From positions 6,448,001 through 6,512,000 of the forward strand of contig NC_014666.1 in the NCBI RefSeq assembly GCF_000166135.1: 64,000 nucleotides of DNA, given 5' to 3'. The notes under the pieces were generated by a model. The model ran no database searches, was not told the DNA's origin, and worked only from the letters and a program-made list of their open reading frames with translations. The stretch's first letter is position 1. Each line of letters starts with the position of its first letter. This DNA is from Pseudofrankia inefficax (GTDB lineage: Bacteria > Actinomycetota > Actinomycetes > Frankiales > Frankiaceae). Positions 43,410 through 61,493 of the stretch are shown piece by piece. Made by a program: the position numbers and the translations under genes.

Positions 43410-43424
43410 TTCAACTCAGTTCAA
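43410..43424. promoter_or_regulatory. Motif B site 1 (TTCAACTCAGTTCAA)
   Basis: A 15-bp palindrome TTnnACTnAGTnnAA in the promoter of the DapB-like gene at 43445. A TATATT hexamer (43406-43411) directly overlaps its left end and could be the -10 element, so binding would block initiation. It lies within an AT-rich island in GC-rich DNA. Confidence 0.68.
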
Positions 43425-43444
43425 AATTGGGCGAGGAGGCAACC

Positions 43445-44509
43445 GTGGCTTATCGGGTCATCCAGTGGGCAACCGGGACGGTCGCGAAGGAGGCGGTGCT
43501 CGGCGTTCTGGGTCGCCCCGACCTGGAGCTGGTCGGCGCCTGGACCCACTCGGCGGACAAGGACGGCCGCGACCTCGGCGACCTCTACGGCTTAGGAGAG
43601 CTGGGCGTGCGCGTCTCCGCCGACAAGGAGGCCGTCCTCGCGACACAGGCCGACGCCGTCCTGTTCATGGTCGGCCGCAACTGGGTCGACACCCCGGAGG
43701 AGTCGTTCGACGACCTGCTCCAGATCCTGCGGTCCGGCAAGAACGTCGTGAACCTCTGGTGGCCGACCCTGGTGTACCCGCGCGGGCTCGCCGGCGACTA
43801 CTACGAGCGGCTGGAGCGGGCCGCCCAGGAGGGCGGCTCGACGTTCTGCACGATCGGCATGGACCCCGGCTACGGCACCGGGGCGCTGGGCCTGTCCGCG
43901 CTCGGGCTGTCCCGCGAGGTCCGCCAGGTCAGGCTGCACCAGGTCATGAACAACGCCTTCTGGGAAGGCCCGGGCATCACCAAGTTCTTCGGGTTCGGCC
44001 AGCTCGACACCGCGGGCACGCCGATCCTGCAGCCGGGGGTGACCACGAGCTACCACGAGACGACGATCCATCTGCTCGCCGACGCCCTCGGCGTGACGGT
44101 CGACGAGATCGTCGAGGAGAACAGCGTCATCTACTCCGACGTCGCCTTCGACGTGGCGTCCGGGCACATCCCGCAGGGGACCATCTGCGGGCTGCGCTAC
44201 GACGTCAAGGGCATGGTCGGCGGCGAGCCTCTGATCGTCGTCGGGCACCTGGAGCGGCTGCGCGAGCACGACTTCGCCGACTTCGACTTCCAGGGCGACG
44301 GCTACCGCGCCGAGGTGACGGGTGAGCCCTGCATCCGCCTCGATATGAAGATCTCGGCGCTGCCCGACTTCGTCGGCGACCCGATCGCGGTCGCGTCGGC
44401 GATGAGCGCGGTCAACGCCGTTCCCCGGGTCTGCGCCGCGCCCGCCGGCGTCACCTCGCTGCTCGACCTGCCGCCGTTCCCCTCGAAGAACACGACGATC
44501 AAGAGCTAG
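43445..44509 (+). CDS. DapB-like NAD(P)-dependent oxidoreductase
   Basis: A 354-residue protein whose N-terminus (RVIQWATGTVAKEAV) is a Rossmann fold of the dihydrodipicolinate-reductase N-domain type. The C-terminal part resembles actinobacterial proteins annotated as dihydrodipicolinate reductase or 2,4-diaminopentanoate dehydrogenase-like, not true lysine-pathway DapB, which is about 250 residues. These genes often occur in lipid and acyl-CoA catabolic clusters with unknown substrate. GTG 43445 has GGAGG five bases ahead. Motif B site 1 overlaps its promoter. Confidence 0.75.
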   Translation: MAYRVIQWATGTVAKEAVLGVLGRPDLELVGAWTHSADKDGRDLGDLYGLGELGVRVSADKEAVLATQADAVLFMVGRNWVDTPEESFDDLLQILRSGKNVVNLWWPTLVYPRGLAGDYYERLERAAQEGGSTFCTIGMDPGYGTGALGLSALGLSREVRQVRLHQVMNNAFWEGPGITKFFGFGQLDTAGTPILQPGVTTSYHETTIHLLADALGVTVDEIVEENSVIYSDVAFDVASGHIPQGTICGLRYDVKGMVGGEPLIVVGHLERLREHDFADFDFQGDGYRAEVTGEPCIRLDMKISALPDFVGDPIAVASAMSAVNAVPRVCAAPAGVTSLLDLPPFPSKNTTIKS

Positions 44510-44529
44510 CCGCTCGACGCCGCTTCGTT

Positions 44530-44563
44530 CGCCGGCCCCGGCGGGTCAGGGCTGGGGCCGGCG
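44530..44563. terminator. Bidirectional terminator hairpin
   Basis: CGCCGGCCCC pairs with GGGGCCGGCG around a 14-base loop, between the convergent DapB-like and substrate-binding-protein genes. No T-run is seen. It probably ends both transcripts. Confidence 0.6.
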
Positions 44564-44568
44564 CACCG

Positions 44569-45843
44569 TTAGCCGGCGCCGAGGCGGGTGCCGCACCACT
44601 CGTTCGGGTCGGGGGCGCCGACGCTGGGCACCACCTCGAAGGCACTCCCGGCGTCGTTGACCCGCACGAAGCTGTAGCACAGGTTCGGCTCGCCGAACCG
44701 GCTCAGGTCGGTGACCGGGATCAGGCCGCCGGCGTCATAGTTCTTCAGCGCGCGCAGGTTGGTGATGAAGGCCGCGCGGGTCGGGCAGGCCCCGGCGAGC
44801 GCCAGGCCGCGCAGGAACTCGTCCGTCGTGATGTAGGCGCCGAGGGCGACCTCGTTCGTCGGCTGGTCGAGCTCGGGCGCGTACTCGCTCATCGCCGCCT
44901 TGTAGTCCCGCAACGCCGTCGAGTCGACGCTGAACGGGATGTGCGGCGTCAGGATCGACATACCGGCCATGCTCGCGCCCTGGCTGGACAGCAGCTGCGC
45001 GTCATAGCCGGAGGTCGCGAGAGCGACCTTGAACGTCAGCCCGGACTGCCGCGCCGCGGTGTAGATCGGCAGGAAGTCGTCGGCCGAGAGAATGCTGATC
45101 AGCGAATCCGCCCTCGACGCCCTGATCTGCGTGACGACCTTGCCGGGATTGGTCACGGTGGGGTTGTAGACGATCGGGTCCGCCACGGCGATGCCCTGGG
45201 ACTGCAGGCTCTCCGTGAACAACTGCACCAGCGCGGTGGCCGACTGGGACAGCGTGTCGTTGTAGACGATGGCCGCGCGGGTGGCGTTGAACCGGTGGGC
45301 GTAGAGCCCGAAGGTCGTCACCGACGAGCTCGCGGACCGCGTCGCCCCGAACGTGAAGCCGAACGTGAACATGTTCCGGTGCTCGGTCCACACGCTCTCG
45401 CCAGGCAGGCCGGTCACCGGGATGCCCTGCTTGTCCAGTTGCTGGGCCGTGCCGCCCACGGAGATGCTCTGGGCGATCAGACCGAAGTCCTTGTCCTGCG
45501 CGAGCAGGTCGCTCGCCGCCACGGCGAAGCCCGAGGTGCTCCCCTCGTCGTCGTGCCAGTCGAGCACGATCTTGCGCCCGTTGATGCCGCCGGCCGCGTT
45601 CGCGACCGCGACCCTGGCCTCGGTCCCGCTGCGGGCCGCGCGGAATCCCGGGGCGATCGCACCGCTGTCCGGGTAGATCAGGCCGACGTGAACCTCGGTC
45701 GGGCTCACCCCGGGGCTGTCGCAGGAAGCAACGGCGCCCTGGCCGGATTTGGTGCATCCGGCCAGGGCGAGGGAGGCTGCGACGGTGCAGACGGCTGCCG
45801 CGGCGAAGTGCCGTCGGCGTAATTCGACAATCACGTTGTGCAT
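44569..45843 (-). CDS. ABC transporter substrate-binding lipoprotein
   Basis: A 424-residue type I periplasmic binding protein. The signal ends in the lipobox LALAGC with C30. The mature part begins VHVGLIYPDSGAIAPGF and contains VANAAGGINGRKIVLDWHDDEGS, typical of Liv-type binding proteins. A second binding protein of this region lies at 54662; both may feed the same LivHMG/LivF transporter. Upstream lie a 12-bp hairpin and four 17-bp tandem repeats, and before these the thiolase gene on the same strand, so its expression may depend on read-through. Confidence 0.86.
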   Translation of the reverse strand: MHNVIVELRRRHFAAAAVCTVAASLALAGCTKSGQGAVASCDSPGVSPTEVHVGLIYPDSGAIAPGFRAARSGTEARVAVANAAGGINGRKIVLDWHDDEGSTSGFAVAASDLLAQDKDFGLIAQSISVGGTAQQLDKQGIPVTGLPGESVWTEHRNMFTFGFTFGATRSASSSVTTFGLYAHRFNATRAAIVYNDTLSQSATALVQLFTESLQSQGIAVADPIVYNPTVTNPGKVVTQIRASRADSLISILSADDFLPIYTAARQSGLTFKVALATSGYDAQLLSSQGASMAGMSILTPHIPFSVDSTALRDYKAAMSEYAPELDQPTNEVALGAYITTDEFLRGLALAGACPTRAAFITNLRALKNYDAGGLIPVTDLSRFGEPNLCYSFVRVNDAGSAFEVVPSVGAPDPNEWCGTRLGAG

Positions 45844-45995: not shown

Positions 45996-47207
45996 TCAGA
46001 CGGCCGCCTTCTCCAGGACGTGCACGCCGCAGGCGCTGCCCAGCCCGATGACATGGGCGAGACCGACGCGTGCGCCCTCGATCTGGCGGTCCCCGGCCTC
46101 ACCGCGCAGGTGATGGCAGATCTCCCAGACGTTGGCGATACCCGTCGCCGCGATCGGGTGTCCCTTCGACTCCAGGCCGCCGGACACGTTGACGGGCGTC
46201 TTCCCGTCGCGCCAGGTCGCGCCCGAGTTGAAGAAGTCGACGGCGCCGCCCTCGGCGCACAGCATCAGGTTGTCGTAGTGCACCAGCTCCGCCGTGGCGA
46301 AGCAGTCGTGCAGCTCGACGAGGTCCAGGTCCTCCGGGCCGATGCCGGCCTGCTCGTAGGCCCGGGCGGCGGCCCGCCGGGTCAGCGTGTTGACGTCGGG
46401 GAGCACCTGGCAGGCCTCCTGCCAGGGGTCGCTGGTGAGCACGGAGGCGCTGACCTTGACCGCGCGGCGGCGCTGCTCCAGCGACAGCGTCCTCAGCTTC
46501 GCGTCGCTCACCAGCACAGCGGCGGCCGCCCCGTCGCAGTTCGCCGAGCACATCGGCCGGGTGTTCGGGTAGGCGATCATGACGTCATTCATGATCTCTT
46601 CGACGGTGAACCGCTTCGAGTAGGCCGCGAGCGGGTTCAACGTCGAGTGCGCGTGGTTCTTCTCCGAGATTCGGGCGAACAGCTCGAAATCAACGCCGCC
46701 GTATTTGTAGCCGTACTCCAGACCGATCTGGGCGAACACTCCCGGCATGGACTCGGTGCCCGTCCTGCCGTCAAGCCCGGCGACCGCGCCGAAACGACCC
46801 TCCGGCACCCAGCGGTCGTTCTCCTTGCGGCGGCCGGCCGGGCCCAGCAGCCCTGCGCCGGAGAGCTTCTCGACGCCGACCGCCAGGCCGTAGTCCGCCT
46901 CGCCCGACCGGATCGCCATGATCGCGACTCGCAGGGCGGTCGCGCCGGTGGCGCAGGCGTTGGCGACGTTGTACACCGGGATTCCGGTCTGGCCGATCTG
47001 CTTCTGCAGCTGCTGGCCGAAGGCCGACGTCCCGGCCATCAGGCTGCCCGCGGCGAGCACGTCCATGTCGCGCATGCCGACGCCCGCGTCCGCGAGCGCG
47101 CCGAGCGCGGCCTCGGAGGCCAGGTCGACGGTGTCCTTGTCCTTGTGCTTGCCGAACTTCGTCATCGAGATCCCGAGGATCCAGACGTCCTGGCTCACCG
47201 CGGACAT
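45996..47207 (-). CDS. SCP-x/Ltp-type thiolase with catalytic cysteine
   Basis: A 403-residue thiolase of the lipid-transfer-protein family. Nucleophile C85 lies in NVANACATGATALR. ELHDCFATAEL, SKGHPIAATG and the late LGSACGVHVLEK complete the active site. It should cleave a branched or bulky 3-ketoacyl-CoA. The DUF35 gene 21 bases upstream encodes its probable partner. In contrast to the Ltp2-like protein at 17998 it retains the cysteine, so here true thiolysis is expected. ATG at 47207. Confidence 0.88.
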   Translation of the reverse strand: MSAVSQDVWILGISMTKFGKHKDKDTVDLASEAALGALADAGVGMRDMDVLAAGSLMAGTSAFGQQLQKQIGQTGIPVYNVANACATGATALRVAIMAIRSGEADYGLAVGVEKLSGAGLLGPAGRRKENDRWVPEGRFGAVAGLDGRTGTESMPGVFAQIGLEYGYKYGGVDFELFARISEKNHAHSTLNPLAAYSKRFTVEEIMNDVMIAYPNTRPMCSANCDGAAAAVLVSDAKLRTLSLEQRRRAVKVSASVLTSDPWQEACQVLPDVNTLTRRAAARAYEQAGIGPEDLDLVELHDCFATAELVHYDNLMLCAEGGAVDFFNSGATWRDGKTPVNVSGGLESKGHPIAATGIANVWEICHHLRGEAGDRQIEGARVGLAHVIGLGSACGVHVLEKAAV

Positions 47208-47228: not shown

Positions 47229-47621
47229 TCAGGCCGGCTCGAATCCATAACCGACGGCCTCGACGCCCGCCTCGTCCGCGCCCAGGGAAACGGTGGCGAG
47301 CCGGACCCGCATACCCGGCCTCACCTGCCTGGGATCCGGCTCCACATTCACCAGGATTCCGCGCGCGGTGATTCCGTCGCAGTCGACGACGGCCGCGACG
47401 AATGGCACCGGGACGCCCGGGCCGGCGGTCGACACGATCGTGAAGGTGCGCAGCGTTCCCTCGCGCGGGACATTCACCTCGCGAAAGGCGGTGGCGCCGC
47501 ACGAGGCGCACGCGTTGCGGCGGTCGAAAAACCTCGCCGCGCACTGCTCGCACTCGTGGGCGACCAGCCGCGGATCGTCCGAGAGAACCAGGTAGTCGAC
47601 CAGCGGAATCCGATCTGCCAC
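47229..47621 (-). CDS. DUF35 zinc-ribbon/OB-fold protein
   Basis: A 130-residue DUF35 protein. Zinc-ribbon cysteines C24, C27, C38 and C41 (AHECEQCAARFFDRRNACASC) precede an OB fold (LRTFTIVSTAGPGVPVPFVAAVV). GTG 47621 is chosen because TTGGAG lies six bases before it; the earlier TTG (47633) is part of that site. It is the first gene of the operon with the thiolase and probably delivers or holds the acyl-CoA for it. Divergent from a TetR gene. Confidence 0.85.
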   Translation of the reverse strand: MADRIPLVDYLVLSDDPRLVAHECEQCAARFFDRRNACASCGATAFREVNVPREGTLRTFTIVSTAGPGVPVPFVAAVVDCDGITARGILVNVEPDPRQVRPGMRVRLATVSLGADEAGVEAVGYGFEPA

Positions 47622-47884
47622 GAACAGCTCCAAGCGCCGGGTGCGCGTCTGGACGACGTCGCACGAATGAATCTCGGTCAGGCTCCCCCGGGCCGCGGCG
47701 GCTCACTCGCGGCCGGGGATCCAACGGATCGGCAACCGCGGCTCGACACGGGCCCGTGGGCGCGGCCGGCCGCATGGCCTACGCCACACCCGCGTGCCCT
47801 TTCCCGGCCGCCGGGGCGCCCGGGAACCCTCTTTCCGGTCGAGCCACATGCGCCCAGGGTGACGACGCCGCTATACTTTGGGCG

Positions 47885-48532
47885 ATGAGTACCCCACCAG
47901 CCCCGCGCCGAGCCCGTCTTATGCAGGAGCGCTCCAGGGAGACGCGGCGCCGTCTGGTGCGCGCAGCGCTTCAACTGTGGTCCGAGCGTGGATTCGAGAC
48001 CGGGATCGAAGAAACGACGGCCGAAGAGATCGCCCAGGCGGCTGGCGTCACGAAGGGCACGTTCTACTTTCATTTCGCCCACAAAGAGGAGATCCTCCTC
48101 GAAATGGGCTATGAGACTGCTTCCGTGCTCAGCGAGGAAGCCGCCCGCTGTATCAAGGCGGAACGCCCTCTCGAGGATTCGCTGCGCCTGCTGATGAACG
48201 CGCTCGCGCGGGCCATCAAGGCCGCTGACCCGGCCGCCGTCACCCGTGCCCTCGCCGAGTTCCGGCGGCCCCGCAGGTCCGACAGCGAGACGCCGTCCTT
48301 CACCCCGGCTTTCGCCGAGGCATTCGAGGTGCTGTTCGAGCGGGCGCAGAAAGAAGGCGAGGTCACCGACCAGGTCGAGCCTGCCGAGATGGCGCAGATC
48401 GTCGAGGCGCTGGTCGTGGACTCCCTGCTCGAATGGGCGGGCGGCCGCCTTCCCAAGCTCAACGTCTCGCTGCACCGCCGGACGGCCATCGTGCTGGCCG
48501 GGCTGCGCCCGGACAACACTCTCACGTTCTGA
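47885..48532 (+). CDS. TetR family regulator, leaderless; candidate motif B regulator
   Basis: A 215-residue TetR protein. DNA-binding part: RRLVRAALQLWSERGFE, then IAQAAGVTKGTFYFHFAHKEEIL near residues 48-70. A TATACT hexamer (47872-47877) ends seven bases before the ATG, so the mRNA is probably leaderless. It lies centrally in the motif B region, divergent from the DUF35/thiolase operon, and is the only TetR gene there. Its own promoter shows at most a half-site of motif B, so the link is inferential. Confidence 0.85.
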   Translation: MSTPPAPRRARLMQERSRETRRRLVRAALQLWSERGFETGIEETTAEEIAQAAGVTKGTFYFHFAHKEEILLEMGYETASVLSEEAARCIKAERPLEDSLRLLMNALARAIKAADPAAVTRALAEFRRPRRSDSETPSFTPAFAEAFEVLFERAQKEGEVTDQVEPAEMAQIVEALVVDSLLEWAGGRLPKLNVSLHRRTAIVLAGLRPDNTLTF

Positions 48533-48566: not shown

Positions 48567-48890
48567 TCAGATCTGTATCTGCACCACGTCGTCCTGAATG
48601 CGGACCGGGAACACCATCAGGTCCTGGTTGAACCCGTCGGAGTTCGACGGCCGGACGCAGGCACCCGAACGCACGTCATAACGACTGGCGTGCGTCGGGC
48701 AGACGATGAAGCAGCCCTGGTCCAACGAGCGTCCGCCGAGTTTGCTGCCCTGGTGTGGGCAGAGGTTCTGGAAGGCGAAGTACTCGCCGTCCACGTTGGC
48801 GACGGCCACTGGAAAACCATCCACCATGACGGTCGTCGTCTCGCCCGGCTCGATGAAGTCAATCGGCAGGGCGTCATAGAACTCGGCCAC
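48567..48890 (-). CDS. Rieske [2Fe-2S] ferredoxin
   Basis: A 107-residue Rieske protein. Cluster ligands are C44 and H46 (CPHQG) and C64 and H67 (CPTHASRYD), complete for a Rieske site. Small size fits a ferredoxin that passes electrons to a ring-hydroxylating oxygenase. No oxygenase or ferredoxin reductase gene is visible in this window. It is last in the operon amidohydrolase-SDR-ferredoxin, 21 bases behind the SDR. Confidence 0.9.
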   Translation of the reverse strand: MAEFYDALPIDFIEPGETTTVMVDGFPVAVANVDGEYFAFQNLCPHQGSKLGGRSLDQGCFIVCPTHASRYDVRSGACVRPSNSDGFNQDLMVFPVRIQDDVVQIQI

Positions 48891-48911: not shown

Positions 48912-49694
48912 CTAGTAGCTGCGGGCGCGAACGACGTCGAGCTTCTGGCCGCGCGGCCGGGTGACGATGAACACGTGGACGTCGGCCACGCTTTCGACCG
49001 TCATTCCGCCGTGCTTGCCAATCACTCGGTTGACAGTTCCCTCGGCCTGCAGCCGCGGCCAGACCAGGTGGGTGTGCTCGCCGCTGTCCACCCAGTCGGT
49101 CGACCCACCGCCCTCGCCGAGGGCGACGCCCTGGATGAGCGTGGTGACCCGGATCTCCTCCTTCTCGAACTCCAGGGACAAGGCCTGGCCCAGCGCCTCG
49201 AGGCCCGCCTTTGTCGCCTTGTAGATGGCCTCGTACGGGAAGACCTCGAGGGTGACCTCGGACGAGGTGTTGACGATGTCGCCACCACCCGCGGCCCGCA
49301 GCAGCGGGATCGCCGCGCGGCAGGTGTAGACGGGGCCGAGCAGGTTGCACCGTACGACCGTGAGGATCTCGTCGTCGGTGAGCACCTCGAACGGTGCCGG
49401 CCGGTGCAGGCCGGCATTGTTGATGAGGACGTCCAGCTTCCCGAACCGGTTCTTGATGGCGTCGAAGCTGGCCTGGACGCTGTCGGGATCACCGACGTCG
49501 GTCGTCAGGCCCAACGCGCGCGGCCCGAGCTGTTCCTCGAGGGCCTTCAGCCGGTCGGCGCCACGAGCCAGCAGCACCACGTCGGCGCCCTCGGCCGCGA
49601 ACCGCCGCGCGATGGCGAGCCCGGAGCCGCTGGTCGCCCCGGTGACCGCGACGACCTTGCCGGCGAGCTGTCCCGCGCCGTTGCTCTCGCTCAT
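48912..49694 (-). CDS. Short-chain dehydrogenase/reductase
   Basis: A 260-residue classical SDR. TGATSGSG near 18-25, NNAGL, the serine pair in VNTSSEV and YKATK as catalytic tyrosine-lysine are all present. It would oxidise a hydroxyl or reduce a ketone with NAD(P). Its start overlaps the stop of the amidohydrolase (ATGA), so the two are coupled and may act on consecutive intermediates. Confidence 0.86.
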   Translation of the reverse strand: MSESNGAGQLAGKVVAVTGATSGSGLAIARRFAAEGADVVLLARGADRLKALEEQLGPRALGLTTDVGDPDSVQASFDAIKNRFGKLDVLINNAGLHRPAPFEVLTDDEILTVVRCNLLGPVYTCRAAIPLLRAAGGGDIVNTSSEVTLEVFPYEAIYKATKAGLEALGQALSLEFEKEEIRVTTLIQGVALGEGGGSTDWVDSGEHTHLVWPRLQAEGTVNRVIGKHGGMTVESVADVHVFIVTRPRGQKLDVVRARSY

Positions 49695-50974
49695 GCGCTC
49701 AGCACCCCGATCCCCGCGGCCTCGTTGCGGCGCCGCCACTCGTTCTTGGACATCCGGGTGACGTCGACGTGCGCCGCGCTGGCCCGCGCCCGCAGCGCGC
49801 CGACCGTGGCGTCCTCGCGCGCGATCGTGGTGAAGGGGTCGAAACCGAAGAACCGGCAGGCGTTCTGCCAGGTGATCTTGTGGGTCTCCTCCTCGGTCAC
49901 CCCCGCGTCAGTCAGCTCGCCCCACAGCAGCTCGGGGGACTCCGGCCAGGTGGTGTCCGTGTGCGGGTAGTCGGACTCCCACGCGATGATGTCGATCCCG
50001 ATCTCGTGCCGGTTCTTCAGGCCGATCGGGTCGGTGATGAAACAGCCGAGGACGTGCTCGCGGAACAGATCCGACGGCAGCTTGCCGCCGAAGTCGTTGT
50101 GCAGCCACACCTGGTTCTTGACGTGCCGGTCGGCCCGCTCCAGGTAGAACGGGATCCAGCCGATCCCGGCCTCCGAGAAGGCGATCTTCAGCGTCGGGTA
50201 CTTGAGCAGCACCCCGCCGAAGATCAGGTCCTGGGCGACCAGCGTCATGATCTGGGTCGACAGGATGATCGAGTGGTCCGGCGGCGCCTCGGTCGGCAGC
50301 TTGAGCAGGCCCATGCCACCGCCGATGTGCAGGCAGAGCACGGTCCCGGTCTCGACGACCGCCTCCAGCAGCGGGTCCCAGTGGCCGGACAGCAGGCTGG
50401 GGTAGCCCTGCGCGTGCGGCGCCTCCAGGAAGCTGACCGCCGGGCAGCCCTTCGCGGACAGCCGGCGCACCTCGGCCGCGGCGATCGCCGGGTCCCACAT
50501 CGGCAGCATCCCGATCGGGATGAACCGCCCGGGCGCGCCGGCGCACCACTCGTCGATGTGCCAGTCGTTGTATGCCTGCAGCATGATCAGCGAGAGCTGC
50601 TTGTCCGGGGCCTCGGCGAAGGTCCTGGCGTTGTAGCCGGCCATGCTGGGGAAACACATCGAGGCGAGCACACCGTTGGCGTTCATGTCGTCGACCCGGG
50701 CCTTCAGGTCGAAGCAGCCCGGTCGCAGCTCGGTGTAGGTGCCGGGGTCGCGGCCCCACTCCTCCGCGGGCCAGCCGACCGTGGCGGCCATGCCGAACGG
50801 TGTCGAGGTCGCCGCGCCCTGGAAGACCCACTGGTCGATCCCGCCGGGGGTACGGATGACCTTCGGCGCCAGGTCCCGGTACTTGGCGGGCACGTGCCGC
50901 TCGTACATGTCGGGCGGCTCGATCGAATGATCATCGATACTCACGAGGATCATGTCTTCTTTTTGCATCCGCAC
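49691..50974 (-). CDS. TIM-barrel amidohydrolase (amidohydrolase 2 family)
   Basis: A 427-residue paralogue of the protein at 33260. It shares ADMRPGC/ELRPGCF, AYNDWHIDEWC, LCLHIGGGMG and the final ESDYPHTDTTWPES. The metal-site N-terminus reads DDHSIEPPDMY, with D-x-S where the paralogue has D-x-H, so metal binding may differ. Chemistry could be decarboxylation or hydrolysis. GTG 50974 has AAGG in front. First gene of the SDR/ferredoxin operon, with motif B site 2 about 40 bases upstream. Confidence 0.82.
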   Translation of the reverse strand: MRMQKEDMILVSIDDHSIEPPDMYERHVPAKYRDLAPKVIRTPGGIDQWVFQGAATSTPFGMAATVGWPAEEWGRDPGTYTELRPGCFDLKARVDDMNANGVLASMCFPSMAGYNARTFAEAPDKQLSLIMLQAYNDWHIDEWCAGAPGRFIPIGMLPMWDPAIAAAEVRRLSAKGCPAVSFLEAPHAQGYPSLLSGHWDPLLEAVVETGTVLCLHIGGGMGLLKLPTEAPPDHSIILSTQIMTLVAQDLIFGGVLLKYPTLKIAFSEAGIGWIPFYLERADRHVKNQVWLHNDFGGKLPSDLFREHVLGCFITDPIGLKNRHEIGIDIIAWESDYPHTDTTWPESPELLWGELTDAGVTEEETHKITWQNACRFFGFDPFTTIAREDATVGALRARASAAHVDVTRMSKNEWRRRNEAAGIGVLSA

Positions 50975-51011: not shown

Positions 51012-51026
51012 TTTGACTCAGTTTAA
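51012..51026. promoter_or_regulatory. Motif B site 2 (TTTGACTCAGTTTAA)
   Basis: Fits TTnnACTnAGTnnAA exactly. It lies 38 bases upstream of the amidohydrolase start on the minus strand, in a 95-base gap behind livF. Binding here would control the amidohydrolase-SDR-ferredoxin operon. Confidence 0.68.
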
Positions 51027-51069: not shown

Positions 51070-51777
51070 TCAGGCGCCCACGTCCTGGCCCAGGTAGGCG
51101 CGCTCGATGCGGCGCAGGTTCTGCCGCGCCTCGTCGGCCGAACCGGACCAGACCAGGCTGCCGCGCTGCAGGATGTAGGCCCGGTCGGCGACCGCGAGGG
51201 CCTGGCGGGCGTGCTGTTCGACCAGCAGCACTCCCGTTCCCCGGTCGGCCGCCCCGCGCAGCGCCTGCATGAGCCTCGTGACGATCTTGGGCGCGAGCCC
51301 CAGCGAGAGCTCGTCGGCCAGCAGGACGGCGGGGTCGGCCGCGAGCGCCCTGGCGGTCAGCAGCATCCGCTGCTCACCCCCGGACAGCAGGCCGGCCCGG
51401 CGGCGCAGCAGCGGCCGAAGCTCGGGGAAGAGCTCCAGCGCGTGCTCGATCGGCCCGCGCCCGATCCGCAGGTTGTCGTGCACCGACAGCCGGGAGATCA
51501 CCGAACGCTCCTCGGGGATCACCCCCAGGCCGGCCCGGACCCGGTGGTGCAACGCGGCCTTCATCGGGCTGTCGCGCCAGAGCACCTCGCCGCCGAGGCC
51601 GGGCAGCGCCCCGGCCATCGTCAGCAGGGTCGTCGTCTTGCCGGCCCCGTTCGGGCCGAGCACGACGACGATCTCGCCGGGACGCACGTCCAGGCTCACG
51701 TCCCGCACGCACGGGACCTTCCGGTAGCCGGCGAACAGGCCCCTGGCCTCCAGCACGGGTGCCGTCTCAGCGGGCAT
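51070..51777 (-). CDS. LivF-type ABC transporter ATP-binding protein
   Basis: A 235-residue ATPase. LFAGYRKVPCVRDVSLDV, Walker A GPNGAGKTT, the LivF-type GVIPEERSVISRLSV, signature LSGGEQR, Walker B VLLADELSLGLAP and switch VEQHARQAL are intact, although aspartate-glutamate-leucine replaces the usual DEP. It provides the second ATPase of the transporter whose LivG half is fused to the permeases in the upstream gene. Start ATG 51777 overlaps that gene by 11 bases. Confidence 0.9.
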   Translation of the reverse strand: MPAETAPVLEARGLFAGYRKVPCVRDVSLDVRPGEIVVVLGPNGAGKTTTLLTMAGALPGLGGEVLWRDSPMKAALHHRVRAGLGVIPEERSVISRLSVHDNLRIGRGPIEHALELFPELRPLLRRRAGLLSGGEQRMLLTARALAADPAVLLADELSLGLAPKIVTRLMQALRGAADRGTGVLLVEQHARQALAVADRAYILQRGSLVWSGSADEARQNLRRIERAYLGQDVGA

Positions 51778-54577
51778 CGCCGACCACCTCCTGCTCCCGG
51801 ACCTGCTGTTCCTGGCCGGCCGGCCGCTCGTCGTCCGGCTCGTCGTGGCGCTCCTCGCCGAGGTAGGCCGCGACGACGCGCGGGTCGTCCCGGATCTCGG
51901 CCGGCGTCCCGGTGGCGATGACCTTGCCGAAGTCCATGACCACGATCCGGTCACAGACCCGGTTGAGCATCGCCACGTCGTGCTCGACCAGCAGGATGCC
52001 GATGCCCCACTCGTCGACCAGCCGGCGCACCAGCGCGGACAGCTCCTGTGTCTCGGTCTCGTGCAGGCCGGCGGCCGGCTCGTCGAGCAGCAGGATCGAC
52101 GGCTCGGCCGCGATCGCCCTGGCGATGGCGACCTGGCGGCGCCGGCCGTACGGCAGCTCCGACGGCACCCGGTGCAGGTCGCCGGCCAGCTCGAACATCG
52201 CGATGGCCGACCGCGCGGCCGGGGTCAGCTCGGTGCGGCGCGGCACGACCAGGTCGGACAGGTAGGACGCCGAGTCGCGCGGGTCCGAGGCGGTCCGCAG
52301 GTTCTCCAGGACGCTCAGCTGGTCGAACAGCTCCAGCGACTGGAACGTCCGGCCGATGCCCAGCCGGGCCCGCCTGCGGGCGTTCAGCCCGTCGATCCGG
52401 ACGCCGTCGAGCAGGATCGTCCCGCCACCGATGCGGTTGAAGCCGGTGACGGCGTCGATGAAGGTGGTCTTGCCGGCGCCGTTCGGCCCCATCACCCCGA
52501 CGACCTCGCCGGGGCGGACGTCGATCGACACCCCGCCGAGAGCCTGGACACCGCCGAAGCGGACCGAGACGTCCTGGACCTCCAGCACCCGCGGCGTCAC
52601 CCGGCGCGGGACGGCCGGCGACGCGGCCGCCGAGGCGACCAGCTGCGCCACCTCGGCCGGAAGCGCCTCGGCCGGCGTGCCGTCGCCGGGCGGCGTGCCG
52701 TCCGAGGCCGCCGCGCGGCGCGTGGGCAGCCGGACCCGCGACCACCGCAGCGTGACGATCCTGGCGGCCAGCCCGTTCGGATAGCCCACCAGCGTCGGTA
52801 CCAGCAGCACGGCGAGCGCCAGGGTCACGTACTGGTTGATCGAGCCGCTGGTGATCAGCGAGCCGAAGATCTTGGTGGTCAGGCCACCCGTCACGTTGGC
52901 GCCGGCCAGGACGGTGCCGACCAGGAAGCCCACGCCGCTGATGACGGTGTTGATGATCACCGAGATCGAGTTGAAGACGTTGTACTGGCTGAAGTCCACG
53001 TAGCTCGCCTGGAAGGCCAGCAGCACGCCGCCGAGCCCGGCGATCGCCGCCGACAGCGCGAACGAGTAGAGCTTGGCGCCGTAGACGCTGATCCCGAGCG
53101 AGGCGGCGGCCCGCTCGTTGCCGCGGACGGCGACGAGGCGCCGGCCGGACCGTCCTCGCCGGATGTTGCCGGCGACCAGCGCGGCCAGCAGCAGCGCGAC
53201 GAGACAGACGATCGCGTACCGCTTGGGGTGGTTGACCGCGTCGATGTCCCAGCCGAACAGGGTGGGCGGGTTGACGACCGTGCCCTCCAGGCCGCCGGTC
53301 AGCGGCACGCTCTGGAACAGGATGCTCTGGAACGAGTACGCCAGGCCGAAGGTCGCGATCGCGAGGTGGATGCCCCGGGTCCGCAGCGCCGGCAGCCCGA
53401 CCAGCACGCCGACCGGCACGGCAGCGGCCACGCCGATGACGAGCGCCAGCAGAAACGGCAGGCCATGGGTGGCGGCGAGCCGCGAGGCGACGTAGCCACC
53501 CCAGCCGGCGAACGCGTACTGCGCGAGAGACAGCTGGCCGGCGTAGCCGGTCACCACGACGAGGGAGACGCAGATGATCGCCCCGATCGTCGTGGCGGTC
53601 AGCGCGTCGTTCCAGTCGTTGGGCGTGGTGAGGATCAGCACCACCCCGGCCGCGACGGCGACCGCCAGCCGGGTCGGGCGCAGGACGCCCGTGCCGATCT
53701 CGGGCAGCAGCTCGTTGACATGGCTGCGCAGCGGCAGGCTCTGGCCCCGGGCGACGAGCACCAGGATGACCAGCAGGAACGGGACCGCGTCGCCCCAGCC
53801 CGCGGCGCGCACGTAGTTGGTGATCTCCGACTGCGCGATGCCGATGACCAGGGAGGCGATGAGCGCGCCCACGAAGGAGTCGAACCGGGCCACCATCGCG
53901 GTGGCCAGGGCCGGGATGATCAGCAGGACGAGCGTGTTGATGTCCAGCCCGGCGATCGGCGCGATCAGGATGCCGGCGAGCCCGGCGAGCATCGCGCCCA
54001 GGGCCCAGTTCACCGCGGCGATGACGTCGGGCGAGTGGCCGGCGAGCTGGGCGGCGCGCTCGTTCTCGGCGACCGCCGAGGTGATCGCGCCGAACCTGCT
54101 GTACCGGTAGACCGCCCACAGCGTCGCCGACACCACGATCGCGAGGCCGAGCAGGACGAAGCGGTCCAGCCCGACCGCCGCCCCGCCACCGATGTCGATG
54201 CTCTTCGACGGCAGGAAGGACGGCACGATCCGGATCGAGGACCCGAACACGATGCGGCCGAGCTGCTGCAGCATCACCATGACGCCGAGGGTCGCGATCA
54301 CCCTCGTCAGCGGCGGCGCGTTCCGCAGCGGGCGCATCACCAGGAAGTGCATGAGCAGCCCGGCCACACCCGAGATGAGCAGGGCCACCACGACGGACGG
54401 AACGGTCGGCAGACCGGCCCGGACATGCAGGTCGTAGTAGGCCAGGGCGCCCACGGCGGCGAACGCGCCCTGGGCGAAGTTCAGGACACCCGAACCCCGA
54501 TAGACGAGGACGAGGCCTTGGCCGGCAAGGGCGTAGATGCCCCCGAGTCCCAGGCCTAGGAAAAGGAAGCGGATCAC
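51767..54577 (-). CDS. LivH-LivM-LivG fusion: ABC importer permeases plus ATPase
   Basis: A 936-residue three-part protein. Residues 1-290 are LivH-like (LVYRGSGVLNFAQGAFAAV), about 300-610 LivM-like (GYAGQLSLAQYAFAGWGGYVA), then a proline/alanine linker and from about 663 an ATPase with Walker A GPNGAGKTT (697-705), the LivG segment GIGRTFQSLELFD, signature LPYGRRRQ, Walker B ILLLDEP and switch LLVEHD. A charged tail ends the protein. The other fusion, at 14238, carries LivF instead. GTG start at 54577. Operon: binding protein, this fusion, LivF. Confidence 0.9.
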   Translation of the reverse strand: MIRFLFLGLGLGGIYALAGQGLVLVYRGSGVLNFAQGAFAAVGALAYYDLHVRAGLPTVPSVVVALLISGVAGLLMHFLVMRPLRNAPPLTRVIATLGVMVMLQQLGRIVFGSSIRIVPSFLPSKSIDIGGGAAVGLDRFVLLGLAIVVSATLWAVYRYSRFGAITSAVAENERAAQLAGHSPDVIAAVNWALGAMLAGLAGILIAPIAGLDINTLVLLIIPALATAMVARFDSFVGALIASLVIGIAQSEITNYVRAAGWGDAVPFLLVILVLVARGQSLPLRSHVNELLPEIGTGVLRPTRLAVAVAAGVVLILTTPNDWNDALTATTIGAIICVSLVVVTGYAGQLSLAQYAFAGWGGYVASRLAATHGLPFLLALVIGVAAAVPVGVLVGLPALRTRGIHLAIATFGLAYSFQSILFQSVPLTGGLEGTVVNPPTLFGWDIDAVNHPKRYAIVCLVALLLAALVAGNIRRGRSGRRLVAVRGNERAAASLGISVYGAKLYSFALSAAIAGLGGVLLAFQASYVDFSQYNVFNSISVIINTVISGVGFLVGTVLAGANVTGGLTTKIFGSLITSGSINQYVTLALAVLLVPTLVGYPNGLAARIVTLRWSRVRLPTRRAAASDGTPPGDGTPAEALPAEVAQLVASAAASPAVPRRVTPRVLEVQDVSVRFGGVQALGGVSIDVRPGEVVGVMGPNGAGKTTFIDAVTGFNRIGGGTILLDGVRIDGLNARRRARLGIGRTFQSLELFDQLSVLENLRTASDPRDSASYLSDLVVPRRTELTPAARSAIAMFELAGDLHRVPSELPYGRRRQVAIARAIAAEPSILLLDEPAAGLHETETQELSALVRRLVDEWGIGILLVEHDVAMLNRVCDRIVVMDFGKVIATGTPAEIRDDPRVVAAYLGEERHDEPDDERPAGQEQQVREQEVVGDAR

Positions 54578-54661: not shown

Positions 54662-55873
54662 TTACGGCTTGGGCGTGAAGATCGGCACGTAGCCGTCCGA
54701 CGTCTGGACGAGCTTCCCGTCCTTCACGACGCCCTCGACGATCTGGTGGTTGAACAGGCGACCGAGGCCGGGGAAGTCGAAGTCCTTGGTCGTCGTGTAG
54801 CCGTCGGGGAGCAGGCCGAAGACGTTGAAGTTGGTCAGGTTGCTCAGCGCCGCGAGCATCGAGGCCCGGGTGACGGGACCGGTCACGGTCCGGGCGACCT
54901 GCGCGAACGCCCAGGTGCTGAGCCAGGCGTTCAGGCTGATCGCGTCGACGGCAGCCTTCGGCTGGTACTTGGCCATCTCGGCGCGGAACCGGACGATGCC
55001 CGCGTCCGAGCTGGTCACCAGCGGCAGTCCGGCGGAGACCAGCACGCCGTCGGCCTTGCCGCCGAGCGCCGAGAGGGTGCTGGCCGTGAGCGACGCAGCG
55101 CTGGTGGAGATCTTCTGGCTGAAGTTGCCGCTCTTGGCGACGTTGAGCCAGGCGGCGAACTGGGTCGGCATCACGGCCAGCGCCACACCGTCGCCCTTGG
55201 CCCCGCTGGTCACCTGCGGGGTCAGGTCGGTGGCGGACACCTCGATCGGGATGCCACCCATCAGCTTCAGGCCCCGGCCCTGCTGCAGCACGATCTGGTT
55301 GAACGGCACCGCGGCAGCGGCAGCGGCGACGTTGGTGTAGGCGACCTGGATCTGCTTCGCGCCGCTGTCGGCGAGCACGGTCGACAGGCCGGCCCCGTCC
55401 GACCCGGCGAGCGGGAAGGAGTTCTTCGCCGTGAGGATCGACTGGGCCGTCGGCGAGGCGCCGATGTTCGCGATCTTCGCCGCGTTCAGGATCGTGTTGA
55501 CCTGCTCGGGGAACGCCTCGTAGTCGCCGACCTCGGCGAGGACGTTCGGGTCCGAGACGATGCCGCGGGCGCAGGTCACCGCGGCGGTCGGGCTGTCGGT
55601 GCCCTTCGCGTCGCAGACCTTGACCTGGAGCGGGTGACCGTTGATGCCGCCCGACGCGTTCACCGCCGCGGCGGCGGCCTGGGCCGCCTGGTACGCCTCG
55701 GTACCCGGCGTGACGCTCGTCAGGGTCGTGATCACCTCAACGGTGTACGGCGTGCCCTTCAGGCCGTTCGTCGAGTTGTCCGTGCTCTTCCCGTCGCTAC
55801 CGCCACAGGCAGCGACCAGTGCCGCTAACAAGCCAGCGGCGGCGGTAAGCGAGATCAACTTGTGGTTCTTCAC
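54662..55873 (-). CDS. ABC transporter substrate-binding lipoprotein
   Basis: A 403-residue type I binding protein with a short signal and lipobox LVAAC (C23). The mature part YTVEVITTLTSVTPGTEAYQ and VNASGGINGHPLQVKVCDAKG is typical of Liv-type proteins. It is first in the operon with the LivHMG fusion and LivF, so it is the direct binding partner of that importer. GTG at 55873. Upstream lie two motif B sites, at 56174 and 56472. Confidence 0.88.
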   Translation of the reverse strand: MKNHKLISLTAAAGLLAALVAACGGSDGKSTDNSTNGLKGTPYTVEVITTLTSVTPGTEAYQAAQAAAAAVNASGGINGHPLQVKVCDAKGTDSPTAAVTCARGIVSDPNVLAEVGDYEAFPEQVNTILNAAKIANIGASPTAQSILTAKNSFPLAGSDGAGLSTVLADSGAKQIQVAYTNVAAAAAAVPFNQIVLQQGRGLKLMGGIPIEVSATDLTPQVTSGAKGDGVALAVMPTQFAAWLNVAKSGNFSQKISTSAASLTASTLSALGGKADGVLVSAGLPLVTSSDAGIVRFRAEMAKYQPKAAVDAISLNAWLSTWAFAQVARTVTGPVTRASMLAALSNLTNFNVFGLLPDGYTTTKDFDFPGLGRLFNHQIVEGVVKDGKLVQTSDGYVPIFTPKP

Positions 55874-56173: not shown

Positions 56174-56188
56174 TTGTACTGAGTACAA
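56174..56188. promoter_or_regulatory. Motif B site 3 (TTGTACTGAGTACAA), perfect palindrome
   Basis: A perfect 15-bp palindrome around a central G, the most symmetrical of the five sites. It lies 301 bases upstream of the binding-protein start (minus strand) and 383 bases upstream of the CoA-transferase start. Confidence 0.68.
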
Positions 56189-56471: not shown

Positions 56472-56486
56472 TTATACTCAGCCTAA
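56472..56486. promoter_or_regulatory. Motif B site 4 (TTATACTCAGCCTAA)
   Basis: Matches motif B except in the right half (AGC for AGT). It contains TATACT (56473-56478), a good -10 element for the CoA-transferase gene at 56571, so operator and promoter overlap. Confidence 0.6.
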
Positions 56487-56570
56487 CTATGGTGTTCCGT
56501 GACGAGCCGTTCGCCGACCCACCCGAGGTCCGACCGGCTTCCAGCCGTACGTAGGAAGGACCGCGGATCC

Positions 56571-57791
56571 GTGCACCAGCCCATGGCAGGCGTCAAGATG
56601 GTCGAGGTCGCCCAGTTCACCTTCACCCCGGCCGCGGGTGGGGTCCTCGCCGAGTGGGGCGCGGATGTGATCAAGGTCGAGCACGCCGAGCGTGGCGACG
56701 CCCAGCGGGGAATGGTGAACCACCCCAAGGACGGCACGTTCCACCCGATCATGGATCACCCCAACCGGGGCAAGCGCAGCATCGGCCTCGACCTCGAGAA
56801 CCCCGCGGGGTACGAGGTGCTGCTGGAGTTGCTCAAGGACGCGGACATCTTCCTCACCAACTTCCTGCCGGACGCCCGCAGGCGGCTGAGGCTGGAGGTC
56901 GAGGACATCCGCAAGGCCAACCCGGACATCATCTACGTGCGGGGCAGCGCCCACGGCCAGCGTGGGCCGTGGGCGGAGAAGGGCGGGTACGACGGCTCGT
57001 CGTTCTGGTGCCGCATGGGCAGCGCGTGGGGGGTGACGCCACCGGACAGCCCTCGGGTCATCTCCATGCCGGGCGGCGCCTACGGCGACTCCATGGGTGG
57101 GATGACGATCGCCGGCGGGATCGCCGCCGCGCTCTACGGCCGGGCGACGACCGGCGAGACGTCGGTCATCGACGTCTCGCTCATGAGCGTCGGAGCCTGG
57201 GCCTTCGCCCTCGACCTGAGCAACGCGGCGCTGAACGGGCCCGAGAAGGAACCGATCTCCATCAACCAGATGATGGCGAACGCGCCGCTGAACCCGACGG
57301 TCGGCCACTTCCGTACCTCGGACGGGCGCTGGATCAACTTCACCATGATTCAGCCCTTCCGGTACTTCGCCGACGTCTGTCGTCACCTGGGCCTCGACGA
57401 GCTCATCGACGACGAGCGCTTCAGCACGGCCGCGAAGCTCATGGCCAACGCGACCGAGGCCGCCCGGTACATCACCGACGCGATCGCCCAGCAGCCGTTC
57501 GCCTACTGGACCAAGCACCTGCAGACGCTGGAGGGCCCCTGGGCCCCCGTGCAGGGCCCGTTGGACATCCTCGACGACCCGCAGATGGAGGCCAACGGCT
57601 ACATCCGGCCCGTCCTGGACAGCGAGGGCAAGGAACGCCGGCTGGTCGCCAACCCGGTGCAGTTCGACGCGCAGCCGCCCACGATCGACCGTGGTCCCCT
57701 GTTCGCCGAGCACACCGACGACCTGCTGCGCGAGCTCGGCCACTCGGAGGACGAGATCCTCGACCTGAAGATTGCCGGCGCCGCCACCTGA
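56571..57791 (+). CDS. Family III CoA-transferase
   Basis: A 406-residue CaiB/BaiF-type CoA-transferase. KMVEVAQFTFTPAAGGVLAEWGADV and IKVEHAERGD form the CoA site, and D141 in GGYDGSSFW is the probable catalytic aspartate. It would activate the pathway acid at the expense of another acyl-CoA. GTG 56571 follows AGGAAGGA; ATG 56583 is an alternative. It leads the gene pair CoA-transferase/SDR, with motif B site 4 on its promoter. Confidence 0.86.
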   Translation: MHQPMAGVKMVEVAQFTFTPAAGGVLAEWGADVIKVEHAERGDAQRGMVNHPKDGTFHPIMDHPNRGKRSIGLDLENPAGYEVLLELLKDADIFLTNFLPDARRRLRLEVEDIRKANPDIIYVRGSAHGQRGPWAEKGGYDGSSFWCRMGSAWGVTPPDSPRVISMPGGAYGDSMGGMTIAGGIAAALYGRATTGETSVIDVSLMSVGAWAFALDLSNAALNGPEKEPISINQMMANAPLNPTVGHFRTSDGRWINFTMIQPFRYFADVCRHLGLDELIDDERFSTAAKLMANATEAARYITDAIAQQPFAYWTKHLQTLEGPWAPVQGPLDILDDPQMEANGYIRPVLDSEGKERRLVANPVQFDAQPPTIDRGPLFAEHTDDLLRELGHSEDEILDLKIAGAAT

Positions 57792-57931: not shown

Positions 57932-58750
57932 GTGAGCTTCACGATCGACCTCGGTGAACGCACAGCTCTGGTGACGGGTGGCGGCCAGGGCGTAGGCCGC
58001 GCGGTCTGCCTGTCCCTCGCCGCCGCGGGGGCCAGGGTGCTCGTCAACGACTTCGTGCCCGAGCGGGCCGACGAGGTCGTCAAGGAGATCGAGGCCGCTG
58101 GCGGGACCGCGGCGGCCCGGCCGTTCGACGTCTCCGACTACGCGGCCGTGACCGGCGCGATCGGCGCCGACCAGGTGGACATCCTGGTCAACAACGCCGG
58201 GAACGCGGGGCCCGGCGGCTGGGACGTGAAGGCCCCAGCCGCCGGTTCCAAGGGGGTCTCGGTGAGCGTCGGCGCGTTCGCGACCACCGAGCCGGCCGAC
58301 TGGGACCGCTACTTCGCCGTCAACCTGTACGGCGTCATGAACTGCACCCGGGTCGCGCTTCCCGGCATGATCGCCGCGGGCGAGGGCCGGGTCATCACGA
58401 TCGTGTCCGACGCGGGCCGGGTCGGGGAGCCGAACATGGCCCCCTACTCCGCGGCCAAGGCCGGAGCGGCGGGCTTCATGCGGGCACTGGCCCGAGAGGT
58501 CGGCGGCGGCGGCATCACCGTCAACAACGTGTCGCTCTCGACCGTGGACACCATGGGGCTGGAGGAGCGAGCCCGCGAGGACGACCAGCTGGCCGACCGC
58601 CTGCGCCGCCAGCTCAAGCGGTACATGGTCCCGCGGCTGGGTCGCCCCGACGACGTCGCCGGGCTCGTCACGTTCCTGGCGAGCCCGCTCGCCGCGTGGA
58701 TCACCGGCCAGACCTACCCGGTCAACGGCGGCTACTCCGTCTCCGTGTAA
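57932..58750 (+). CDS. Short-chain dehydrogenase/reductase
   Basis: A 272-residue SDR. TGGGQGVG near 17-24, NNAGNAG, serine in TIVSDAGRVG and YSAAK are present. An insertion around residues 95-115 (PAAGSKGVSVSVGAFA) lengthens the substrate loop compared with plain FabG proteins. It likely oxidises a hydroxyacyl-CoA or hydroxylated ring. GTG 57932, after GAGAGAGG. It follows the CoA-transferase with the palindromic repeat in between. Confidence 0.86.
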   Translation: MSFTIDLGERTALVTGGGQGVGRAVCLSLAAAGARVLVNDFVPERADEVVKEIEAAGGTAAARPFDVSDYAAVTGAIGADQVDILVNNAGNAGPGGWDVKAPAAGSKGVSVSVGAFATTEPADWDRYFAVNLYGVMNCTRVALPGMIAAGEGRVITIVSDAGRVGEPNMAPYSAAKAGAAGFMRALAREVGGGGITVNNVSLSTVDTMGLEERAREDDQLADRLRRQLKRYMVPRLGRPDDVAGLVTFLASPLAAWITGQTYPVNGGYSVSV

Positions 58751-58854
58751 CGGCCGGGCCCCGGCCACAGGCCCCTGACCTCCATGCTGCCCCGCCTGGC
58801 CAGGCAACACGTGAGGCCGCTTAACGGCGAACGTAGCCTCCGTAGACCCGTAAG

Positions 58855-60434: not shown

Positions 60435-60544
60435 CGATCCGTGCAGGCGCGCGCACTCGCGGCGGAGCCTTCCCGACGATCCGGTAGGTGATGTTCCGGT
60501 CGGGTGCTTCGCGTGGTCGTTCGCCCGCTGGGCTGGTGTGGCGG

Positions 60545-60574
60545 AGGTCCTCCCGGGTGGGTCCGGGAGGACCT
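60545..60574. terminator. 12-bp terminator hairpin
   Basis: AGGTCCTCCCGG pairs with CCGGGAGGACCT around a 6-base loop (GTGGGT). It lies between the convergent hipA and SDR genes and can end both transcripts. Confidence 0.7.
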
Positions 60575-60585
60575 GCGCCAGGAGC

Positions 60586-61416
60586 TCAGACCTTGGTCTC
60601 GCTCATCAGGAAGTCGATGGTCGGCTTGCCCGCCTCCCAGGAGCCGGCGATGGAGGCTTTGACGTGGCCGTAGTCGACGAGGACGCTCTCGCCGCTGAGC
60701 CCGATCGCGGCGTCGCTGTTCAGGAAGGCCATCACGTTGCCCATCTGCTCCGGCTGCAGCGGCGGGGCACCGACGGCCTCGCGGTACTGCTGGTCGAAGC
60801 CGCCCCAGGAGTTCGCCTTGGCCAGCGGTGTCTCGGTCGGCCCGGGGCAGATCGCGTTGATCCGGATGCCCTTGCTGGCGTACGTGTAGGCCGCCCGGGC
60901 CACCCAGGTGTTCACGGCCTGCTTGCTGAACATGTAGGTGTCCGTGTCGGCGTGGGAGGCCACCCAGGCCTCGGCCTCCTCGTAGGACTCGGTCGCCAGG
61001 AAGTCGACCAGCGCCGGCAGGTGGTTCGTCCAGCCGAGGCCGGCGACTGACGAGATCAGGCAGATCGCCGACCCGGCGCCCAGCCGGCCGTCGGCGATCA
61101 GCCGGTCGACGATGTGGCGGTGCGAGATGAAGTTGACCCGCATCGTTCCCGGGCCGCCGCCGATCCCGGCCGCGGCGAACACCGCGTGCACCGGGCCGGG
61201 TACCTGGTCGAGCGCCGCGTCGATGCTCGCGCGGTCGAGCAGGTCGACCTCGATCGACTTCGCGACCGCGTAGTCGACCGGCACCCGGTCCAGCACCGTG
61301 ACCTCGGCTCCGAGGGCCGCGACCGCGTGCGCCGCGGCGGCGCCCATGCCGGTCGCACCGCCGACTACCAGGGCATGTTTCCCGTCGTAACGGAAGGCCT
61401 GCGCATCGCCCATCAC
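60586..61416 (-). CDS. Short-chain dehydrogenase/reductase (3-alpha-HSD-like)
   Basis: A 276-residue SDR. Cofactor loop VGGATGMG near 18-25, no ordinary NNAG but FAAAGIGGG, a serine in LISSVAG, then an insertion (about 45 residues) before YMFSKQAV, the catalytic Y-x3-K. This long-insert layout is that of 3-alpha-hydroxysteroid dehydrogenase/carbonyl reductase-type SDRs. Substrate remains unknown. GTG 61416 is preceded by GGAGG; ATG 61413 is adjacent. It is divergent from the acyl-CoA dehydrogenase pair, with motif B site 5 in between. Confidence 0.85.
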   Translation of the reverse strand: MMGDAQAFRYDGKHALVVGGATGMGAAAAHAVAALGAEVTVLDRVPVDYAVAKSIEVDLLDRASIDAALDQVPGPVHAVFAAAGIGGGPGTMRVNFISHRHIVDRLIADGRLGAGSAICLISSVAGLGWTNHLPALVDFLATESYEEAEAWVASHADTDTYMFSKQAVNTWVARAAYTYASKGIRINAICPGPTETPLAKANSWGGFDQQYREAVGAPPLQPEQMGNVMAFLNSDAAIGLSGESVLVDYGHVKASIAGSWEAGKPTIDFLMSETKV

Positions 61417-61478
61417 TCTCTAACCTCCGGGATCGCCAGTCAGCTCCGGTCCGTGCTAGAACCGTGCAACACGGTAAA

Positions 61479-61493
61479 TTATACTGAGTTGAA
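61479..61493. promoter_or_regulatory. Motif B site 5 (TTATACTGAGTTGAA)
   Basis: Fits TTnnACTnAGTnnAA. It lies in the 163-base gap between divergent SDR and acyl-CoA dehydrogenase genes. On the plus strand it contains TATACT (61480-61485), a likely -10 for the dehydrogenase operon starting at 61580. Confidence 0.68.

Follow-up and report, generated by a model that had tools for sequence, protein, structure and literature searches.

A palindromic operator set in a catabolic gene cluster of Pseudofrankia inefficax and its probable recognition by a TetR regulator resembling FadR of Thermus thermophilus

A window of 64,000 nucleotides from the genome of Pseudofrankia inefficax (contig NC_014666.1, positions 6,448,001 to 6,512,000) contains five copies of a 15-bp palindrome in front of genes of a putative catabolic cluster. 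Our analysis indicates that these sites are almost certainly operators, and that they are very likely bound by the TetR-family protein encoded in the same cluster (47885-48532; TetR in the following). The explanation as a whole, namely that the sites are the operators of a TetR repressor resembling FadR of Thermus thermophilus, is also likely, if slightly less so. The latter protein is called FadR(Tt) here; it is TTHA0101, a member of the TetR family. The reading is carried by computational results on the sites themselves, their conservation, their restriction to one cluster, their co-inheritance with TetR and their match to the FadR(Tt) operator. Coordinates are window positions, numbers above 64000 continue past the right edge, and the source genome is named G000 where relatives are compared.

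The motif was written as TTNNACTNAGTNNAA with ten specified bases. A match is called exact with 10/10 of these bases and near with at least 9/10, and near counts include the exact ones. All five palindromes that had been proposed from the sequence alone were found at 43410, 51012, 56174, 56472 and 61479. Four of them match exactly, the copy at 56472 deviates at one base, and the claimed perfect symmetry of the copy at 56174 was confirmed around its centre. A scan of the full window with up to two mismatches revealed no further site. The statistic for the window is modest: the five matches at up to two mismatches compare with a shuffle mean of 1.58, and 3 of 100 shuffles reach five. The genome, a single contig of 8,815,781 bases, has six exact copies of the motif and one of the reversed control. 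All six exact sites are located within one 27.5-kb stretch between genome positions 6491410 and 6518886, in agreement with the earlier view of an operator-like element local to this region, and the probability that six random sites fall that close is about 2e-12. Four of them lie in the window and two just beyond its right edge (64183 and 70872); the five-site set is therefore real, but continues past the window.

With one mismatch allowed, the genome contains 16 sites, seven in the cluster and nine outside, compared with seven for the genome-wide control. The wider FadR(Tt) core TTNNACYNRGTNNAA has ten genome matches (control: two), of which seven are in the cluster and three outside. Neither scan supports a wider regulon in the source genome. 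The core scan adds a site at 70846 (TTTGACCGGGTTGAA), 26 bp from the 70872 site; related genomes of the sister genus retain only its middle part, beside a -35-like TTGACA. The sequence retrieved around the site clusters, 433 kb in all, contains 45 exact and 71 near sites of the motif, and 19 permuted palindromes gave 0 exact and at most 2 near sites. Based on the genome-wide count, the reversed control and the permuted palindromes, a chance origin of the motif was rejected. A matrix of 64 distinct sequences, which is symmetric by construction because both strands were added, shows near-invariant TT, AC and AGT letters with weaker symmetric preferences further out. These flanking preferences are for A/T and extend the palindrome to about 23 bp, read as RTANTTRRACTSAGTYYAANTAY.

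Conservation was analyzed in two groups of relatives, which we read as the genera Pseudofrankia (own) and Parafrankia (sister, G024-G029). A motif match is present in 6/8 same-genus genomes, own included, and site clusters with orthologous genes in five of the eight (G000, G001, G002, G003 and G006; in G002 across three contigs). G004 has two isolated sites only, and G005 and G007 have none. In the sister genus, site clusters with orthologous genes were found in all six genomes, one of them (G027) a remnant; the operons are reordered, yet most are still preceded by sites. Upstream of the DapB-like ortholog, operator 1 is exact in G006, G001 and G002 and has one deviation in G003. Operator 3 keeps all ten specified bases in 5/5 Parafrankia sequences compared and shows one deviation in G002. 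Operator 4 matches at 9/10 bases in G006, G001, G003 and G002; in Parafrankia it is exact in 3/5 sequences and 9/10 in the other two. A site-anchored footprint of G000 against the sister genus gave identity of the specified bases at 59/60 for the second amidohydrolase, 50/50 for the solute-binding protein SBP2, 43/50 for the CoA-transferase CaiB1 and 45/50 for the enoyl-CoA hydratase (ECH). The flanks are only 31-43% identical, except one flank of 61% at ECH, which contains a -35-like TTGAAA/TTGACA. Three promoters were compared within the genus only, with 29/30, 30/30 and 30/30 specified bases identical and flanks of 26-79%.

The co-inheritance of sites and regulator was examined in 35 genomes of the order, all from one family. 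A TetR ortholog (at least 66% identity) is encoded in 11 of them, with two copies cut by a contig end; all other matches reach at most 44%. The 11 genomes with the ortholog contain 50 exact sites (reversed control: 10), and the 24 genomes without it contain 5 (reversed control: 11). The 50 sites are distributed as 6, 6, 5, 6 and 7 in G000, G001, G002, G003 and G006 and as 5, 5, 3, 1, 3 and 3 in G024 to G029; some of them are unproven as cluster operators (G006:C234, G003:C2 and three in G024) or are contig-end repeats (G025). Fisher tests gave 6e-8 for at least three sites (10/11 against 0/24) and 3e-6 for any site (11/11 against 4/24), with genomes that are not independent. Among 393 sampled genomes of the class, 14 match TetR at E 1e-42, all from this family (no more than seven candidates were scored in each genome). 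Among the regulator genes traced (TetR, Xre and MerR, with no systematic search), only TetR accompanies the sites in both gene arrangements; in G025-G028 its gene is located behind the acyl-CoA dehydrogenase pair and ahead of the second amidohydrolase. The sequence-only reading had named two observations that would overturn it, and neither was made: the density of the motif in the rest of the genome and in family members that lack TetR falls short of that in the cluster, and relatives do carry the motif in front of orthologous genes.

A separate line of evidence comes from FadR(Tt), the closest solved relative of TetR (profile E 9.7e-13, phmmer 4.7e-13, Foldseek ranks 1-6) and its best match by both sequence and fold. 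The matched structures 3ang and 3anp were crystallised with dodecyl-CoA and lauroyl-CoA. TetR has a TetR_N domain (E 1.8e-13 when the longer frame starting at 47756 is used), and its C-terminus was assigned by Pfam to TetR_C_43, which is SbtR-like (28.5 bits, cut-off 27). The letters of the recognition region, GVTKGTFYFHFAHKE, are identical in nine orthologs aligned. According to the available text of PMC5597230, the operator consensus of FadR(Tt) selected in vitro is TTRNACYNRGTNYAA, with a dissociation constant (KD) of 0.17 nM for TTGGACTTAGTCCAA. It shares the centre, the length and the tolerated Y/R positions with the motif found here; the motif, which the earlier reading had not recognised, is thus that of a described regulator. 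This match is separate evidence because that paper played no part in the discovery of the sites. Among the 71 near sites, 32 agree with the FadR(Tt) consensus in 12/12 letters, 38 in 11 and one in 10. Furthermore, 10 of 14 deviations among 32 distinct 15-mers are T7>C or A9>G, which are the Y/R positions of FadR(Tt), and its R3/Y13 preference is satisfied at 52/64 places. Since the sites were picked with the motif at no less than nine of ten letters, the independent part of the match consists of the Y/R variants and R3/Y13. In PMC5597230 the operator mutants m2 and m6 bound worst; T2 and C6 are invariant to two decimals in our matrix, and they equal m2 and m6 if the mutant numbers denote positions. 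Literature searches on the motif letters and on Frankia or TetR regulons returned nothing relevant among the matches listed. Searches on FadR(Tt) showed no report of its operator in Actinomycetota among the matches listed, which is not proof of none, and the Sulfolobus FadR motif letters were not found in the available portion of PMC6449355.

As described for FadR(Tt) in the accessible part of PMC5597230, the sites appear to lie within or to overlap core promoter elements, in line with the earlier suggestion that three of them overlap a plausible -10 element. The -10 and -35 calls are matches to consensus hexamers and not mapped starts. Besides the hexamers given in Table 1, the scan suggested TAGACT at the second amidohydrolase and, at the ECH promoter, TAGTGT together with a TTGAAA spaced 17 bp from it. 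When the scan was widened, 6/9 promoters had their best -10-like hexamer overlapping the site; that of CaiB1, TATGGT, lies just past the site. Near the sites the scan scores add up to 69, a value reached by 1/500 flank shuffles (single-base; mean 50.9, standard deviation 5.5).

In the mechanism that we propose, one dimer of the FadR(Tt)-like TetR protein would bind each palindrome, and the dimers bound on or beside the -10 elements would block RNA polymerase. In the window this would concern the DapB-like gene and the amidohydrolase, LIV-transporter, CaiB and SDR/acyl-CoA dehydrogenase operons (SDR, short-chain dehydrogenase). Beyond the window, the second amidohydrolase and the divergent operons for a CoA-ligase and for ECH, aldehyde dehydrogenase (ALDH) and P450 would be blocked. 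After uptake and activation of the substrate, a CoA-thioester intermediate would most likely bind the C-terminal domain and free the protein from the DNA. By analogy to FadR(Tt), KstR and MbdR, a repressor released by a CoA thioester is reasonably probable. Physical binding by TetR, repression, the CoA-thioester ligand and the pathway are what we infer from the computed results.

TetR had already been named as the candidate regulator, and by its co-inheritance with the sites and its relation to FadR(Tt) it is the best candidate; the earlier choice had left a second DNA-binding gene, Xre (58855), unweighed. This gene forms a pair with HipA (59178) within the cluster. However, only G000 and G006 have the pair at this location; the sequence retrieved around the clusters of G001, G002, G003 and G024-G029 contains sites but gave no match to it (the rest of each genome was not searched). 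Regulation by Xre-HipA was rejected on these grounds and has a negligible probability. It is unlikely that the operators belong to another regulator encoded elsewhere in the genome and that the adjacent TetR is incidental. Such a reading would fit the low overall identity of TetR to FadR(Tt) and the TetR promoter of the source genome, which lacks a site. Against it, the TetR ortholog and the motif clusters occur in the same 11 of 35 genomes (one with a single site), TetR follows the sites through the rearrangements of the cluster, and the solved protein nearest to it recognises exactly this sequence. A conserved promoter element, such as one of an alternative sigma factor, would explain the overlap with -10-like hexamers, yet both palindromic halves are kept at every site (the sites were picked for this), the offsets from the -10-like hexamer and the -35-like partner differ between sites, and no exact copy exists elsewhere in the genome; we regard this origin as very improbable. 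Somewhat less improbable, if still a little less likely than a distant regulator, is that TetR binds the sites as an activator, or represses some promoters and activates others. The position of TATGGT downstream of the CaiB1 site and the distance of about 300 bp between the SBP2 site and its gene would be compatible with activation, whereas repression is favored by the overlap at six of nine promoters and by PMC5597230, where FadR(Tt) is described as a repressor whose sites lie in core promoter elements.

Several points weigh against binding and repression by TetR, both of which are deduced from computation. TetR is only about 25% identical to FadR(Tt), so that orthology of the two proteins is not established; the sequence match spans only residues 16-111 approximately, and the structure model is of moderate quality (pLDDT 78.6, pTM 0.64). 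A TetR relative of 48% identity in a metagenome-assembled genome (MAG) from Centralia (L079:10001-10633) has unchanged recognition-helix letters, and only one weak site (8/10) is located nearby. The genomes come from two genera and are not independent, and no genome with the cluster but without TetR was found; co-inheritance therefore does not separate TetR from an unseen regulator that is passed on together with the cluster. In the footprints, part of the identity at the specified bases stems from selection, since sites were picked at nine or more of ten letters, and comparisons inside the genus show good conservation of some flanks too (79% and 67%); the presence of a site at the compared promoters is not itself a product of this selection. 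At the first amidohydrolase and AMP-ligase promoters the wide scan scores better away from the site. Finally, in the source genome no site was detected at the promoter of TetR or at the thiolase/SBP1 unit, and no autoregulation is thus visible.

In operator and fold TetR is FadR(Tt)-like, and according to the accessible text of PMC5597230 the candidate targets of both include acyl-CoA ligase-related and acyl-CoA dehydrogenase genes. We did not classify it as FadR because the exact sites mark one specialised cluster and not general fatty-acid degradation; the two proteins also belong to different phyla. KstR (Rv3574) of mycobacteria is, as far as the available text of PMC1995591 describes it, likewise a TetR repressor of a lipid-catabolic regulon with a palindrome partly over the -10 element, but its operator TnnAACnnGTTnnA is unlike the motif, and TetR scores 31 bits with the KstR model, whose cut-off is 280. 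SbtR of T. thermophilus shares the TetR_C_43 assignment and a similar half-site (GACT/AGTC), whereas in its consensus TGACTGGCCAGTCA the centre is even and the gap longer (PMC4948773). MbdR of Azoarcus, the sensor of 3-methylbenzoyl-CoA, is a TetR repressor of a catabolic cluster that is freed by the first CoA-thioester of the pathway, the model proposed for TetR here; its operator ATACN10GTAT and its pathway differ (PMC4424350, available in part). The dit cluster for abietane diterpenoids (PMC13063091 and PMC10710418, both in part) resembles the present one in an amidohydrolase related to DitZ and a P450 gene comparable to DitQ. DitA is a ring-hydroxylating dioxygenase in the available text of PMC13063091, and no such family was detected among the 30 translations scanned, a subset of the open reading frames (ORFs).

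The system is ordinary in kind, yet as a new regulon it is well supported. It provides a predicted regulon for an uncharacterised catabolic pathway in bacteria of the Frankia family and marks its member operons. The recognition sequence of FadR(Tt) is apparently in use well outside Thermus, and the motif can be used to seek further such regulons. More tentatively, and without considering it the likelier case, we suggest that the operator code was kept from Thermus to the Frankia family in regulators of about 25% identity and that the regulon, once devoted to general fatty-acid degradation, now serves a specialised P450/CaiB/amidohydrolase/LIV-transporter pathway with a pathway-specific acyl-CoA signal, the substrate probably being a plant-derived polycyclic or branched acid.

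Table 1. Predicted operators and genes of the cluster in the window.
Feature	Position	Strand	Sequence	Remarks
Operator 1	43410..43424		TTCAACTCAGTTCAA	upstream of DapB-like oxidoreductase gene; touches -10-like TATATT
Operator 2	51012..51026			upstream of minus-strand amidohydrolase-SDR-Rieske ferredoxin genes; contains -10-like TAAACT
Operator 3	56174..56188		TTGTACTGAGTACAA	perfect palindrome; about 300 bp upstream of minus-strand LIV-type binding-protein/transporter genes
Operator 4	56472..56486		TTATACTCAGCCTAA	9/10; upstream of CaiB1 and SDR3
Operator 5	61479..61493			between divergent SDR2 and ACAD1-ACAD2; overlaps -10-like TATACT (+) and TATAAT (-)
DapB-like / 2,4-diaminopentanoate dehydrogenase-like oxidoreductase	43427..44509	+		candidate target; start may be GTG 43445
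LIV-type solute-binding protein 1 (SBP1)	44569..45843	-		no operator seen before its unit in source genome
Thiolase	45996..47207	-		nearest solved relative SCP2-thiolase; no operator before unit in source genome
Small gene between thiolase and TetR	47229..47633	-		orthologs in clusters; label OB1 is a guess
TetR-family regulator, 215 aa, FadR(Tt)-like	47885..48532	+		proposed operator-binding protein; longer frame from 47756
Rieske ferredoxin	48567..48890	-		candidate target
Short-chain dehydrogenase SDR1	48912..49739	-		candidate target
Amidohydrolase_2 protein	49691..50974	-		candidate target; related to DitZ (8uyr) and PtmU3; start uncertain
LIV-type ABC permease/ATPase	51767..54577	-		candidate target
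LIV-type solute-binding protein 2 (SBP2)	54662..55873	-		candidate target
CaiB-type (family III) CoA-transferase CaiB1	56499..57791	+		candidate target; true start probably downstream
SDR3	57932..58750	+		candidate target; inside longer overlapping ORF; SDR call by eye from translation
Xre (HTH_3) and HipA_C gene pair	58855-60434			Xre 58855, HipA 59178; between CaiB1/SDR3 and SDR2
SDR2	60586..61416	-		candidate target
Acyl-CoA dehydrogenase ACAD1	61580..62704	+		candidate target
Acyl-CoA dehydrogenase ACAD2	62747..64000	+		candidate target; continues past window edge to 64009

Pfam and NCBIfam assignments around the sites comprise LIV-type transport, two amidohydrolases, CaiB-type CoA-transferases (one double), an AMP-ligase, acyl-CoA dehydrogenases, ECH, SDRs, ALDH, P450, Rieske ferredoxin and thiolase. 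We read the cluster as a putative route by which an organic acid is taken up, activated with CoA and degraded in the manner of beta-oxidation. The relation of the first amidohydrolase to DitZ (E 9.5e-131) suggests a diterpenoid substrate, but this is weakened because the family is rich in paralogs of 47-69% identity. The apparently double CoA-transferase is a CaiB-type protein with two CoA_transf_3 stretches (L007:3384-5876, minus strand). In the sister genus an operator is found at the OB1-thiolase unit in G024, G028 and G029. The Xre-HipA pair gave weak PADLOC matches only.

The gap between CaiB1 and SDR2 (57792-60580; L013, L016) varies among relatives; G001 and G003 have AMP-ligase-like and SDR-like genes there. 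The remnant in G027 (L063) is broken; the second amidohydrolase and an acyl-CoA dehydrogenase are partial, and TetR and one site are kept. The TetR relative at L079, from an actinobacterial MAG, is located near relatives of the thiolase (80%) and ECH (72%). Away from its main cluster, G024 has three more exact sites (L066:7995, L067:3336 and L067:12806), but its control count is three as well. Two of them are identical 15-mers, one in front of a P450-like gene (29%), and the third precedes a second CaiB1-like gene (71%); they are possible additional members of the regulon. At G004:1812046 and G006:C234:38114, one and the same 15-mer forms an isolated exact site within orthologous ORFs that we take to be ribF; this shared 15-mer is probably due to chance. 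Other isolated exact sites were found at G003:C2:902598 and G004:2987272 and in G013, G014 and G015.

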